NCBI GenBank assembly: GCA_023255965.1
Contig: JAGDWE010000009.1
Coordinates: 1 to 55,513, forward strand
From: Desulfurococcales archaeon
GTDB taxonomy: Archaea; Thermoproteota; Thermoprotei_A; Sulfolobales; NBVN01
Length of the DNA stretch: 55,513 nucleotides
Direction of reading: 5' to 3'
Below, one piece after another: positions 23,948-31,161 of this stretch (its first letter is position 1; every line of letters begins with the position of its first letter). The translations under genes were made by a program, and so were the position numbers. The notes beneath the pieces were generated by a model. It saw only the letters and a list, made by a program, of their open reading frames with translations. It was not told the origin of the DNA and did no database searches.

Positions 23948-23984
23948 CTGACCTCCTCCCCGCCCTGAAGGGCGAGGCTTTCAG
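23948..23984. repeat. IS200/IS605-type terminal sequence, intact
   Basis: ctgacctcctccccgccctgaagggcgaggctttcag, imperfect hairpin typical of archaeal IS605/TnpB element ends. Confidence 0.75.
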
Positions 23985-24026
23985 TTGTAATTAAAGGGTA
24001 TTTAAATGCATCGTTAAATCATAAAC

Positions 24027-24949: not shown

Positions 24950-25110
24950 CTAAAGGGCGGGGATCCCAACACCCAGTTTGAAGGGCGGTTAGGGCCAGAG
25001 CTCGACCTAGGCTACTAGCTGGGGATCGATTCCCTAAGGCAAACCACCACCAAATACTTTAGAGGGCGTTTATCTATAGGCACTTACGCCTCAAGGAGGT
25101 AGGGCTTTCA
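24950..25110. repeat. Family-A dispersed ~160 bp repeat
   Basis: gcctaaagggcggggat...tttgaagggcggttaggg...attccctaaggcaaaccaccaccaaatactttagagggcgttta, aligns with 52726-52885. Confidence 0.7.
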
Positions 25111-26955
25111 GACGTAATCAGCGTACTCAGCTAGTCCTAGCTCAATCAACTTATCCCTTGTAGGAATCCCATTTAAGTCCCATCCCCTTAGCCTGTAGTA
25201 CTCCATTAACGCGTTATCGAATTCATCCCTCCTTAAAACCACACCTTTAACTACATCATCTGGTAGTGGATCCTCAAATACCCTCGGTGGCAAGGTGTCA
25301 TCCTTCCGCCTAATACCCTCCCTGACATTAAATATCCTAATTAAGTTCCATATTCTTTCACCGCATTTTAGATACTCCTCAACAGTGTAGTTAAAGCCTG
25401 TTGCAGCATTTAGTAGATTTACCGCAGGTATTGGTGCGAAATCACAGATAACTAATGAGAAAGCTGCTGCCCTCTCATCCTGTACTTCCTTGACATACTT
25501 AGCCTTGTCGCTTAGTGAGAATCTATGTAACCTTCCCTCGATCTCAGCTCTAGTCGTCCAAGCGCGTTGATGGCATGCGCCTCTATCAGCCGTTGCGTAT
25601 GCTAGAGCCATACCACTGGAACTCCTTGGATCATATCCAGGCATTTCCAAGCCCTTAACATGCATTGCAAACCTTTCGGAACCCCTACCTATGGTCTTTG
25701 AGGCCATAGCAACACCTTCAGCTAATAAATTGCCCAACCAGCCCTCCCTATATGCGATGCGTCTAATTAGCTCCCTCTGAGCTGCCGCGTTCCCGAACCT
25801 TATATCTAATTCGCTGCACTCTTTACCCGCTAATATACCTTTCTCGCAGCATTCCATGATCCATCCAATGACATTGCCCGTTGAAATAGCATCTAACCCT
25901 AACTCATTGCATAGGTGTACGGCCTTAATTACATCGACTATATCCTTCACTCCATTATTCGTACCTAGCAGGGCTATCGTCTCATATTCTGGCCCCCTAA
26001 CGATTACTTCCTTACCATCTATTATTACGTGGCTTAATTTACTGCACGATATTATGCAGTTAAAACATGTAATATCCTTAATCACATAATTAGCCCTCAA
26101 ATGGTCGGCATACAGCTTTTCGGCGTCTCTTAAAGATCCCCTTTGGAAGTTGAGGGACGGTATTATACCGTGTTCATTCATAGGCTTAACCCAGTAGGCA
26201 GTGCCGTATTTCCTCCTAAATTGCATGAATGGATTATCATTAATAGATTTAACAGCCTCTAAGACCGCCTTCTTAAACCCTTCAGGATCAGCTACCTCAA
26301 TCTTATGCGAACCCTTAATAGCTATTGCCTTTAGGTTCTTAGAACCCATCACAGCGCCTGGACCGCCTCTAGCTGCTATACCATTCCTCTCCTCCTCCTT
26401 ATCAAACACTATACATGCGTACCTAACTAGCTTCTCACCCGCAGGACCTATGACACCTACATGGGCATCACGACTCGTCTCACTCCTAACGACGTCCACA
26501 GCTTTACTTACAGTTAAACCCCATAAATGAGTTGCTTCCCTAAACTCCACTAAGTCATCATTTACCCATAAGTAAGTAGGATGCTGTGCACGTCCCCTGA
26601 TGACGATGGCATCATAACCCGCCTTCTTAATTTCTGGACCCATATAACCGCCTACATGGGAGTCCGTGAATATACCGGTTAGTGGCGACTTAGTAACCAC
26701 TACAAACCTACCTGAAGTCGGTGCCGAAGTCCCTGTTAATGGTCCAGTAGCAATTATAAGTACGTTTTCAGGACTTAGTGGATCTACATGAGGCCTTAAA
26801 TTATCAATTAATAACTTAGCCCCCAAGCCTTTACCACCTATGAATAATCTTAAATACCTCTCATCGATACCGTATGTCCTTACCTTCTCACTACTTAAGT
26901 CCACATCCAAGATCCTTCCCATGTAACTACTCAAAGATTGGAACCCAGGTATCAA
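25108..26955 (-). CDS. aor: Tungsten-containing aldehyde:ferredoxin oxidoreductase family protein
   Basis: GRILDVDLSSEKVRTYGIDERYLRLFIGGKGLGAKLL, GGYMGPEIKKAGYDAIVIRGRA, CFNCIISCSK. Confidence 0.95.
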   Translation of the reverse strand: MIPGFQSLSSYMGRILDVDLSSEKVRTYGIDERYLRLFIGGKGLGAKLLIDNLRPHVDPLSPENVLIIATGPLTGTSAPTSGRFVVVTKSPLTGIFTDSHVGGYMGPEIKKAGYDAIVIRGRAQHPTYLWVNDDLVEFREATHLWGLTVSKAVDVVRSETSRDAHVGVIGPAGEKLVRYACIVFDKEEERNGIAARGGPGAVMGSKNLKAIAIKGSHKIEVADPEGFKKAVLEAVKSINDNPFMQFRRKYGTAYWVKPMNEHGIIPSLNFQRGSLRDAEKLYADHLRANYVIKDITCFNCIISCSKLSHVIIDGKEVIVRGPEYETIALLGTNNGVKDIVDVIKAVHLCNELGLDAISTGNVIGWIMECCEKGILAGKECSELDIRFGNAAAQRELIRRIAYREGWLGNLLAEGVAMASKTIGRGSERFAMHVKGLEMPGYDPRSSSGMALAYATADRGACHQRAWTTRAEIEGRLHRFSLSDKAKYVKEVQDERAAAFSLVICDFAPIPAVNLLNAATGFNYTVEEYLKCGERIWNLIRIFNVREGIRRKDDTLPPRVFEDPLPDDVVKGVVLRRDEFDNALMEYYRLRGWDLNGIPTRDKLIELGLAEYADYV

Positions 26956-26996: not shown

Positions 26997-27053
26997 AAAA
27001 TCAGCTGAGACAGGTTTAATCACCTGGTCATCTAATTTTCGTCATCATCTACT
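26997..27053 (-). ncRNA. C/D-box sRNA
   Basis: Minus strand: ATGATGA (C) - N10 - ATGA (D' variant) - GTGATTA (C') - AACCTGTCTCAG - CTGA (D). D guide complementary to TGAGACAGGT, a conserved 23S rRNA segment. Confidence 0.65.
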
Positions 27054-27061
27054 AAATACAA

Positions 27062-27095
27062 CTGAAAGCTCCGTCCTTTACGGCGAGGATGAAAG
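27062..27095. repeat. IS200/IS605-type terminal sequence, decayed
   Basis: ctgaaagctccgtcctttacggcgaggatgaaag. Confidence 0.45.
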
Positions 27096-27258
27096 TTTAT
27101 AAGCTTTTCTACGTTCCCGATGGTTTGGAGGCGCTTTACGGACTCCGGCGGTGGGGGCCGGGGGACCGTGAGGAACCCAAGGGCGGGTAATCAACAACCA
27201 CCAAAGAACATCAAAGATCGCTCCCGGGTGAACGGCTGGGGGCCGGATATAATAGTGA

Positions 27259-27315
27259 TCAGATGATGTGACGACGGTCTCCTGAGGTGTGATGCATCTT
27301 CTCTTCACTGAAATG
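27259..27315 (+). ncRNA. C/D-box sRNA
   Basis: ATGATGT (C) - GACGACGGTCTC - CTGA (D') - GGT - GTGATGC (C', partly overlapping spacer) - ATCTTCTCTTCA - CTGA (D). D' guide complementary to AGACCGTCGT of 23S rRNA. Confidence 0.72.
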
Positions 27316-27363: not shown

Positions 27364-30300
27364 ATGATGCCAGTGTATGATGAGGTACGAGATGCTGAGC
27401 TGGGAATCTACAGCGGTTCATGTCCTAATTGCGGCGGCGTAATAAGCGACTCTAGACTAAGGAGCTCGCTTCCATGTACTACATGTCTTCCCATCTTTAA
27501 AAAGGACATTAGCTTGAGTAATTTAATTAAGTTGTTGGAGGAATTAGGTACGCTAAATAGGCTAAGGGAGCGATATCTAACCGAGCTAAGCGTTAACGAG
27601 ATGGTGGATATCTTTGAAAAATGCGTCGGTAGTAAGCCGTGGAGCATCCAAATGCTGTGGATGCGCAGACTAGCTAGGAATATTTCATTCGCTATGATCG
27701 CTCCTACCGGCATAGGTAAGACCACCTTCGGCATAGCAATTAGCATTTACTATGCATCTAAGGGCTATAAGACGTATATCATAGTACCAACCACGATGCT
27801 TGCAATGCAACTAGAGAGGAAGTTTGAGGAGGTAGCAAGGAGACCTAATGTCCCGTTAATTAACTACTTGGTGATACATTCCAAGGTACCTAGGAAGGAG
27901 CGTGAACTAAGGGAACGGAGACTGGATGAAGGGGCTTTCGACGTATTAGTAACTACCTCTAGATACTTGCTAAATAACTTTGAGAGGATCTCAAGGAACA
28001 ACTTTAAATTCATATTCGTTGATGACGTTGATGCTGTTTTAAGGGGATCCAAAGCCATAGATATGATACTTAAGTTAGCTGGATTTGATGATGATGACAT
28101 CGAGTTAGCGCTTAAGCTATTAAGGCTACGTAGTGAGTTAACGTTCAGACGTGACGACGAGAAATTGGTTGAGGAGATATCCAAAATTGAGGAGCACATT
28201 AAGTTAAGGAGGGCTCGGAACAATAAGGTAGTTGTTATAGCTAGTGCCACGGGGAATCCTAGAGGAGTTCGAGTTAAGCTATTCAGGGAGTTATTGGGCT
28301 TCGAGATAGGTGCTAGACCGGAGTTTATACGGAATGTTGCTGATCTATATATCAAGCCAGGAGGCGCCCCCATAGAAGAGATTGTAATTAATATGGTTAA
28401 GAAGCTGGGTAGTGGCGGTCTAGTGTACGTTCCTGTAGATAAGGGCGTGGAATTTGCAGAAGCATTAGCTAAGATATTAAATAGTCGTGGAATACATGCA
28501 GAAGCATTACATAGTAGAAACGTTAAAGTAATTAATGAATTCGTGGAGAGGAAATTAGACGTCCTCATAGGCGTCGCTACATATTATGGGGTACTAGTTA
28601 GGGGTTTAGACCTACCTGAGGTAGTGAGGTATGCGATATTCGTGGGTGTTCCAAGACATAAGATACCGTTGAGGCTTAACAACATAGGGCCATACGATGT
28701 ATTAAGACTTTTAACGATAGTGAGGGACGTTATTAGGGATCAAGACCGTAAGAGGGATTTAGATAATTTACTGATGGTCATTAGGAGGGGGTTAAGGAGG
28801 GCTTCAATAACAGCATTATCTAAGGCTAAGGAGGTATTAATGAATTTAAGAACTGCTGAGACATCATTTGAGAAGAACCTACTTAAAGCGTATGAAGCGC
28901 TTAGGAGCTACTTAAACGATTCGTCAATCGTAAACGAGATTAAGAAGTACGGTGAGGCAACTATTATTGAAGAGAACGGCGAGCTCTACATATTAATACC
29001 TGACGTACCTACATATATTCAAGCTAGTGGTAGGACTTCAAGGCTGTTTATTGGAGGTATAAGTAAAGGGCTGTCCATAGTAGTAGATGATGATGAAAGG
29101 CTGCTTAAGGGGTTGGAGTCTAGGGCCAGATGGTTAATTGATGATTTCAAATTCTCTAGCATAGATGAAGTCGACTTAGGCAGGCTAGTTAATGAGGTTG
29201 ATAGGGATAGGGAGTTAATTAAATCGATACGATGCGGACTAGTAGATGTATCGGAATTGAGTAAGTTGGGTAAGGAATTCATAGCACCTAAGACGATATT
29301 ATTAGTTGTTGAATCACCTAATAAGGCTAGAACTATAGCTCGTTTCTTCGGTAAACCAAGTATACGTGATTATGGTGGATTAAGGGTTTATGAAGTCAGC
29401 ATAGGTAGATATACGCTATTAGTAACCGCTAGCGGGGGGCATATATATGACCTAATAACAAATACCGCTGCAACTGACAACATTTACGGAGTTGCTTATG
29501 AGAGGATGGACGGCAGGTTTAAGTTCATACCTATATATTCATCCATAAAGAGGTGCCTGAAATGCGGCTATCAATTCACTGATGAATTAAGTATGTGTCC
29601 CATATGTGGATCTGCTATTGTTAAAAATTCGATAAATATTGTAAATCTACTTCGAGATTTAGCTTATGAGGTTGATGAGGTCTACATAGGAACAGATCCA
29701 GATACAGAGGGAGAAAAGATCGGATATGATATATACCTGGCATTAAGTCCGTACGCAAGGATTATAAGAAGGATAGAGTTTCATGAAGTTACTAGGAAGG
29801 CCATACTCAATTCATTAAGTAATCCAAGGGACATAGAGTTAAACCTAGTTAAAGCTCAGGTAGTTCGTAGGATTGAGGATAGATGGCTTGGATTCTCACT
29901 ATCCTCCCTCCTTCAGGTGGACTTCTGGAAGGAGTACTGTAGGGGGAGAGGACGCTCAGATGCTAGGTGTGGTGAGCCCGTTAATAGGAATTTAAGTGCT
30001 GGTAGAGTTCAGACGCCAGTCCTCGGATGGATTGTAAAGCACTATGAGGACTACGTCAGCAGTAAGAGGAAGTTCCTCATATTAAACCTAAACAATATAC
30101 GTCTTGAAATAGCTCTTACTGATGAATTCGCTTCATTAAGTACTGAGGATATAGCTGAGGTCGTAGTTAAGGTTTTAAGTAGAGATGTTGTTAGTGAGGA
30201 GTTAAAGCCCTTGCCGCCTTATACGACCGATAGCGTGCTATCGGATGCATCGCTGTTTCTTGGATTACCTGCCCCCCAAACAATGCAAGTACTTCAGGAA

Positions 30301-31161
30301 TTATTTGAGATGGGATTCATAACGTATCATAGGACGGATAGTACCAGGGTGTCTGAGGTGGGTCTAGCTATTGCGAGGGAGTATTTGAGTAGTCTATTAG
30401 GGGGTGAATTCGGTAAGTACTTCGCCCCAAGGGTATGGAGTTCTGAGGGAGCACATGAATGTATAAGACCGACTAGACCAGCTGATGCAGACATGATTAC
30501 TAGGCTTATTAGTGAGGGGGTCATAGAGCCAGTGAGAAGGTTAACCCGTAAGCACTTAAATATATATAACTTAATATTCAGTAGATTTATAGCTAGTCAG
30601 TCTAAGGAGGCCATAGTTAGGAAGGGGAAGTATGAATTAATGATCGAATTACGCCTAACGAACGGCCGAACCCTGAAAATTACCGAATCGCCTCTAGTTG
30701 CAGAGGGCGTAGTTGACGTTATGTTCGACGGGTTTTCAAGATTTTATAAGTACTTTAAATTAATTAATGATTTAATGCCTGGTTCCTACATCCTCACTAA
30801 GGACAACTTTAGAGTTATTACCAAGGGAGTTACCCCGCTACTTACTCAAGCACGTTTAATTAGTATGATGAGGGAGAGAGGTATTGGTAGACCAAGCACC
30901 TACTCAAAGATCATTGAGACATTATTTAAACGTAACTACGTGATTGAGAGCAGGAGAAGAGGTTATCTAATACCTACTCAGCTAGGTATAGAGGTTTACT
31001 ACTACCTCAGTAATTCATTTAAGAGCTTGGTGTCTGAGGAGAGAACCAAGGACTTGGAAATGAAGATGGATCTGATAGAGGCAGGTAAGCAGGATTACAG
31101 CGAAATACTTAATGAGCTTTACAACGAATTAATTACACAGGGATTAGTAAGGGTGCGCTAA
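27364..31161 (+). CDS. rgy: Reverse gyrase
   Basis: N-terminal zinc finger CPNCGG..CTTC, helicase APTGIGKTTFGIAI, Toprim VVESPNKARTIARFFGKPS, second zinc finger, topo IA active site FITYHRTDSTRVS. Confidence 0.97.
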   Translation: MMPVYDEVRDAELGIYSGSCPNCGGVISDSRLRSSLPCTTCLPIFKKDISLSNLIKLLEELGTLNRLRERYLTELSVNEMVDIFEKCVGSKPWSIQMLWMRRLARNISFAMIAPTGIGKTTFGIAISIYYASKGYKTYIIVPTTMLAMQLERKFEEVARRPNVPLINYLVIHSKVPRKERELRERRLDEGAFDVLVTTSRYLLNNFERISRNNFKFIFVDDVDAVLRGSKAIDMILKLAGFDDDDIELALKLLRLRSELTFRRDDEKLVEEISKIEEHIKLRRARNNKVVVIASATGNPRGVRVKLFRELLGFEIGARPEFIRNVADLYIKPGGAPIEEIVINMVKKLGSGGLVYVPVDKGVEFAEALAKILNSRGIHAEALHSRNVKVINEFVERKLDVLIGVATYYGVLVRGLDLPEVVRYAIFVGVPRHKIPLRLNNIGPYDVLRLLTIVRDVIRDQDRKRDLDNLLMVIRRGLRRASITALSKAKEVLMNLRTAETSFEKNLLKAYEALRSYLNDSSIVNEIKKYGEATIIEENGELYILIPDVPTYIQASGRTSRLFIGGISKGLSIVVDDDERLLKGLESRARWLIDDFKFSSIDEVDLGRLVNEVDRDRELIKSIRCGLVDVSELSKLGKEFIAPKTILLVVESPNKARTIARFFGKPSIRDYGGLRVYEVSIGRYTLLVTASGGHIYDLITNTAATDNIYGVAYERMDGRFKFIPIYSSIKRCLKCGYQFTDELSMCPICGSAIVKNSINIVNLLRDLAYEVDEVYIGTDPDTEGEKIGYDIYLALSPYARIIRRIEFHEVTRKAILNSLSNPRDIELNLVKAQVVRRIEDRWLGFSLSSLLQVDFWKEYCRGRGRSDARCGEPVNRNLSAGRVQTPVLGWIVKHYEDYVSSKRKFLILNLNNIRLEIALTDEFASLSTEDIAEVVVKVLSRDVVSEELKPLPPYTTDSVLSDASLFLGLPAPQTMQVLQELFEMGFITYHRTDSTRVSEVGLAIAREYLSSLLGGEFGKYFAPRVWSSEGAHECIRPTRPADADMITRLISEGVIEPVRRLTRKHLNIYNLIFSRFIASQSKEAIVRKGKYELMIELRLTNGRTLKITESPLVAEGVVDVMFDGFSRFYKYFKLINDLMPGSYILTKDNFRVITKGVTPLLTQARLISMMRERGIGRPSTYSKIIETLFKRNYVIESRRRGYLIPTQLGIEVYYYLSNSFKSLVSEERTKDLEMKMDLIEAGKQDYSEILNELYNELITQGLVRVR

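Follow-up and report, generated by a model that had tools for sequence, protein, structure and literature searches.

Most targets assigned to archaeal guide RNAs have been predicted from short complementarity. Dennis et al. (2015) described helices 90-93 as a hotspot; C2864 of their pan-archaeal alignment is predicted to be methylated in Pyrobaculum calidifontis and Ignicoccus hospitalis, and where guides match the two opposing strands of a single helix the authors propose chaperone roles (PMC4644070). Since C2880 of that paper equals E. coli C2606, alignment C2864 corresponds to E. coli 2590 (PMC4644070), the predicted site of one of the guides reported here. All 23S positions below follow E. 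coli numbering, taken from rrlB. Yeast Cm2959 (snR73) and human Cm4506 are, so we assume, located at the same position as 2590.

The window, i.e., the whole stretch of 55,513 nucleotides that was analysed, carries two C/D-box sRNA genes on opposite strands, termed S1 and S2. Taken as a whole, the locus is best explained, and we say this with high confidence, by S1 and S2 being functional divergent methylation guides on helix 93 (H93) of the 23S rRNA which act by the steps proposed below. The features are as follows.

25108..26955, minus strand: gene for aldehyde ferredoxin oxidoreductase (AOR), by Pfam; downstream of S1 on the same strand
27001..27048, minus strand: S1, the partner C/D-box sRNA gene, core 48 nt; by relaxed pattern, relatives and covariation
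27001-27004, minus strand: S1 box D, CTGA
27005..27016, minus strand: S1 D guide, AACCTGTCTCAG; pairs with 23S 2596-2605 (H93 loop and 3' strand), predicted site G2599
27017-27023, minus strand: S1 box C', GTGATTA
27028-27031, minus strand: S1 box D', ATGA
27032-27041, minus strand: S1 D' guide, CGAAAATTAG
27042-27048, minus strand: S1 box C, ATGATGA
27057..27112, plus strand: copy of a dispersed repeat, about 50 bp, a hairpin plus TTTATAAG; many copies in the genome and in relatives
27113..27245, no strand assigned: GC-rich rest of the insert, by composition; the examined relatives lack it in the pair
27263..27311, plus strand: S2, dual-guide C/D-box sRNA gene, core from box C to box D; by box layout and 36 other distinct loci
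27263..27269, plus strand: S2 box C, ATGATGT
27270..27281, plus strand: S2 D' guide, GACGACGGTCTC; pairs with 23S 2587-2596 (H93 5' strand and loop), predicted site C2590
27282..27285, plus strand: S2 box D', CTGA
27289..27295, plus strand: S2 box C', GTGATGC
27296..27307, plus strand: S2 D guide, ATCTTCTCTTCA; in 23S fits GGGAGAGAAGA best (10 bp, one of them G-U), predicted site G2056
27308..27311, plus strand: S2 box D, CTGA
27364..31161, plus strand: reverse gyrase gene, by Pfam; starts 52 nt after S2 box D

As criterion for an archaeal C/D-box sRNA we used RUGAUGA, CUGA, C' and CUGA in this order within about 50-60 nt in total. S2 reads ATGATGT-GACGACGGTCTC-CTGA-GGT-GTGATGC-ATCTTCTCTTCA-CTGA (49 nt) and S1 reads ATGATGA CGAAAATTAG ATGA CCAG GTGATTA AACCTGTCTCAG CTGA (48 nt); both have boxes C, D', C' and D in order, and C and C' are variable at their last base, just as among relatives. 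A strict C/D'/C'/D pattern matches S2 alone in the 55.5-kb window and yields 0.00 matches per first-order Markov copy of it. When the pattern is relaxed S1 is the sole addition, at 0.01 matches per Markov copy. In a C/D sRNA the sixth base of C or C' is expected to pair with the first base of D or D' in the k-turn (PMC7994747). Read from the sequence, these pairs are G-C and G-C in S2, and in S1 G-C plus U-A for the variant C'/D' (GTGATTA/ATGA); S1 homologues mostly have ATGA as box D' and usually RTGATTA as C'. Both RNAs form guide duplexes of ~10 bp with the rRNA of relatives, Watson-Crick at N+5, and genes for fibrillarin, Nop5 and L7Ae are all encoded in the genome of the window organism. 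In an Rfam scan of the window only tRNAs passed thresholds, and S1 and S2 belong to no curated C/D family. Their weak matches all fall in C/D-box families, the best at 17.7 and 17.4 bits vs gathering scores of 40 and 50. The best match of S2, sR45 (RF01274), is of the same class and aligns over the full model, yet 17.7 bits are far under its gathering score of 40 and S2 was rejected as a member. The dual-guide C/D-box sRNA claimed in the first-pass annotation is thus borne out: the sequence is as described, chance matches are at 0.00-0.01 per copy and the gene is conserved in relatives. Anatomy, conservation and the covariation described below support the view that S1 and S2 are real, conserved C/D guide sRNAs.

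The assembly of the window organism is about 80% complete in 77 contigs and lacks a 23S gene; therefore, targets were checked in the 23S rRNA of relatives. In each guide position 1, next to box D or D', is unpaired and positions 2-11 form a 10 bp duplex. The S2 D' guide pairs with 23S 2587-2596, placing the N+5 site at 2590; the S1 D guide pairs with 2596-2605, placing it at 2599. The complementarity of the D' guide to AGACCGTCGT, noted earlier from the window alone, is exactly as it had been given. The sequence AGACCGTCGTGAGACAGGTC is present in the 23S of two relatives (G003 and G005), with a G-C variant in the Zestosphaera clade, and the 23S of the window organism itself should read AGACCGUCGUGAGACAGGU. 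The stretch, whose lack in the 23S had been named as grounds for refutation, was thus present in the relatives, the organism's own 23S being absent from its assembly. It folds as H93 with a GUGA tetraloop, a closing pair C2594-G2599, a bulged A2602 and a pair 2590-2604. Because the paired segments 2587-2596 and 2596-2605 cover this fold, the two guides tile the H93 hairpin and join at U2596, the single nucleotide shared by both duplexes. The suggestion that S1 and S2 have adjacent 23S targets is upheld in relatives, where the duplexes abut.

The target scan was weighted for Watson-Crick pairs; ranking by the longest pairing with G-U at full weight was dropped as it resulted in ties for the S2 D guide. 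In the weighted scan H93 is the best or joint-best 10-11 bp 23S pairing for each of the two H93 guides, and for S2 D' a second 23S site scores about equally in three G-C-type genomes. For the S2 D guide, no scanned 23S gene offers a better target than GGGAGAGAAGA with the site G2056, which ranks first or joint-first with 9-11 bp, one or two of them G-U. Since this target is invariant in the genomes seen, the assignment to G2056 lies beyond the reach of covariation. Positions 2056 and 2590 are distant in sequence, and both are in the peptidyl-transferase centre (PTC). C2590 and G2599 are well-supported predictions as 2'-O-methyl sites, and G2056 is the best-fitting candidate for the S2 D guide. 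Hypervariable between species, the S1 D' guide has no consistent target in rRNA; it matches about as well in shuffled rRNA, and this half of S1 looks free to drift. In two 23S genes (L039 and L124, of G009 and G003) the H74 and H93 target sites lie about 710-730 nt apart vs the usual 530, so rRNA introns may separate the two sites of S2 in these genomes.

Guides and rRNA covary at the pair 2590-2604. In five relatives (G001, G009, G017, G022, G041) the 23S reads AGAGCGTCGTGAGACAGCTC, i.e., C2590-G2604 is swapped to G-C. These five are the genomes of the Zestosphaera clade with rRNA at hand, and each of them has CGACGCTCTC as S2 D' guide and AGCTGTCTC as S1 D guide. Eight C2590-G2604 genomes possess both sRNAs; here S2 D' is CGACGGTCTC, but CGACGGTCTT in two, and S1 D is ACCTGTCTC. 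rRNA and guide agree as well in four genomes with only S2 and in two with only S1, and no disagreement at 2590-2604 was seen among the genomes with rRNA examined (5 + 8 + 4 + 2). The covarying base is guide position 5 in S2, which pairs with the methylated base, and guide position 10 in S1. In a 23S tree all five G-C genomes fall into one clade; consequently, one event is claimed, comprising four coordinated substitutions in three genes, and independent repeats of the covariation are ruled out by this tree. On the sequences at hand, H93 pairing appears to have been kept in relatives, with no exception, by joint change of the rRNA and both guides. Because a natural compensatory change in the PTC is matched in two separate guide genes, the sequences by themselves are strong evidence that both duplexes are important to the cell.

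Mechanistically, S1 and S2 would each bind L7Ae, Nop5 and fibrillarin. The S2 D' guide would open the 5' strand of H93 and direct 2'-O-methylation of C2590, the S2 D guide would direct methylation of G2056, and the S1 D guide would open the 3' strand and direct methylation of G2599, the base which closes the GUGA tetraloop. At first reading it had been suggested that the paired guides could compete or act in sequence. As the duplexes exclude a folded H93, the RNPs most likely act in turn on nascent pre-rRNA before H93 closes, and may serve as modifiers and folding chaperones of the PTC at the same time. The order of action, the chaperoning and the co-regulation of S1 and S2 are what we infer. 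One may go further and assign the chaperone role first place: the guides would hold the strands of H93 and the PTC strand at 2056 apart until domain V is ready, with methylation being secondary. Such chaperones were proposed by Dennis et al. (PMC4644070), the S1 and S2 duplexes jointly span the whole hairpin, and S2 bridges 2056 and 2590, two PTC positions a long way from each other in sequence. Further, the covarying base of S1 at position 10 is away from the methylated base, indicating that the entire duplex is kept. Yet the D' guide keeps its pair at position 5 too, as methylation needs, and about 10 bp is normal for methylation guides, so that duplex length does not discriminate. We consider primacy of chaperoning a possibility on the unlikely side, and retain methylation guidance on H93 as the preferred reading.

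Both genes are conserved across related Sulfolobales-type archaea. The best match of S2 in a related genome has E = 7.8e-16, that of S1 E = 2.8e-6. In a search of 40 relatives most members of the same family have S2, as do genomes from two other families; its guides are conserved across relatives, its flanks are not. Scanning 85,462 species genomes for the exact S2 pattern matched 30 contigs, whose labels are without exception those of Sulfolobales- or Desulfurococcales-type Thermoprotei/Thermoproteota (Zestosphaera, Ignisphaera and MAGs). When S1 is searched alone, matches in family members are mostly directly upstream of S2 on the opposite strand. A divergent S1 lies within 320 nt of S2 in 27 of the 36 distinct S2 loci, the window left out. 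Among the nine loci without a nearby S1 one is at a contig end, and seven of the remaining eight are alike: they belong to or resemble a genus-level group, g7, in which S2 is relocated, and in two of the g7-type genomes with a lone S2 an S1 was found elsewhere. In several other families of the order the S1 D guide occurs unlinked to S2 and with different D' guides; by this distribution the S1 D guide is older than the S1/S2 pair. One relative (G039, L026) has an S2-like homologue whose D' guide is CGACGGTCTC and whose D side has diverged; there, no S1 match was found at E <= 1. At two loci (L027 of G033, L028 of G036) S2-like D' guides are on unrelated D-side sequences, i.e., the predicted C2590 guide has stayed and the rest of the sRNA has been exchanged.

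The flanking genes had been named as AOR and reverse gyrase, and Pfam identifies both accordingly. Reverse gyrase follows S2 on the same strand at 60-180 nt in 18 of 36 loci, 17 of which also have S1. The proposed check, whether the pair also precedes reverse gyrase in relatives, gave a positive answer with these counts (27/36 paired, 18/36 with reverse gyrase). The order AOR-S1-S2-reverse gyrase is common to the window and two relatives, G003 (L008) and G013 (L005/L095). At an Ignisphaera-type locus (L024, G025) the pair appears inverted, with reverse gyrase beyond S1, not S2, and a gap of 232 nt. C/D sRNAs adjoin reverse gyrase in the window and in many relatives; in Nanoarchaeum equitans two C/D sRNAs flank NEQ434, the N-terminal half gene of the split reverse gyrase (PMC3491384).

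From box C to box C the pair is separated by 36-82 nt in 24 loci and by 232 nt in one, G025. A TATA-like peak is located 34 nt upstream of S1 box C (4.86 vs 4.64 for the best of 300 shuffles) and another one 32-33 nt upstream of S2 box C (5.29 vs 4.90 for the best of 300 shuffles). Because the short gaps put each TATA near the partner gene, the S1 and S2 promoters face each other and overlap. In most relatives two facing TATA boxes within a gap of about 36-82 nt would thus drive the pair, and the promoters may be co-regulated or mutually exclusive.

In the window the gap is about 214 nt and no TATA box exists at the usual distance upstream of S1 or S2; an insertion removed the normal TATA positions. 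It consists of a dispersed repeat, TTACAACTGAAAGCYYCGYCCTTTARGGCGRGGATGAARGTTTATAAG, whose left edge is sharp, at TTAC, and whose right flanks are element-specific, and of a GC-rich stretch. A second repeat copy lies in the window at about 23954-23992 on the minus strand; the insert as query has about 15 matches in the genome of the window organism and 19 in G001, often including the TTTATAAG box. One copy sits in a TnpB locus; the repeats are probably ends of IS200/IS605-type (TnpB) elements, and some copies may supply promoters. The IS-like GC-rich relic, which had been noticed between the two sRNAs at first reading, is therefore recovered as a repeat copy plus GC-rich insert, presumably the remains of an IS200/IS605-type element. 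The GC-rich part was dismissed as a structured RNA (fold z = -0.84 and 0.23 on the two strands, no better than shuffles), and the insert region has no non-C/D Rfam match. Transcription in the window genome might start from the insert's TTTATAAG box, which could drive either direction, or occur by read-through.

The wide gap, the empty TATA site and the T at the end of S2 box C, a departure from RUGAUGA, might indicate decay, i.e., that the insertion took the promoters and that the sRNAs are relics in this genome. We deem this improbable. The eight boxes are all intact, as are the two conserved guides, a box C ending in T is also found in several relatives with normal spacing, the gap of G025 is likewise long and the insert brings a box of its own. 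In addition, processing of longer transcripts can yield mature C/D sRNAs (PMC7994747). The earlier idea of duplication of one sRNA followed by divergence, with adjacent targets as a by-product, draws on the same size and box layout of adjacent genes with adjacent targets but is very improbable and was abandoned, since only the boxes are common, the guides are without similarity, H93 is matched by the D' guide in S2 but by the D guide in S1, the two being complementary to opposite strands, and S1 without S2 in other families means that each existed apart.

Functional, divergent methylation guides on H93 thus remain the preferred interpretation. That they form a single module of two RNAs, which are co-expressed from promoters that face and overlap each other and act in a set order on the H93 strands to control PTC folding and modification, and that this module was kept as one, often next to reverse gyrase, and re-tuned as one when the hairpin mutated, is a rather doubtful extension. 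S1 and S2 offer a defined test system for asking whether guide RNAs are modifiers, folding chaperones or both: a pair of RNAs would act on a single hairpin, methyl sites are predicted at two positions, and in one clade the specificity is swapped.

In the open literature, Breuer et al. included, we found no account of a divergent C/D pair, supplements and subscription papers being beyond reach; the head-to-head arrangement with adjacent targets might conceivably be new. Several known systems come close. I. hospitalis sR124/sR127 have the same predicted target as the S2 D' guide, 23S C2864, i.e., E. coli 2590 (PMC4644070). P. calidifontis sR30, with D' to C2864 and D to C2880, addresses both sides of H93 and shares the D' site with S2 (PMC4644070). 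However, a single sRNA does both sides there, whereas S1 and S2 split the work between divergent genes, and the 3'-side site of sR30 is 2606 vs 2599 for S1. In N. equitans sR15/sR17 guides are directed to opposite strands of one 16S helix, akin to the idea for S1 and S2 (PMC4644070); in that case both guides are in one sRNA and act on 16S, whereas S1 and S2 are two sRNAs and act on 23S. By sequence comparison, then, S1 and S2 belong to a known class, in an unusual gene arrangement and with a clean coevolution of three genes.
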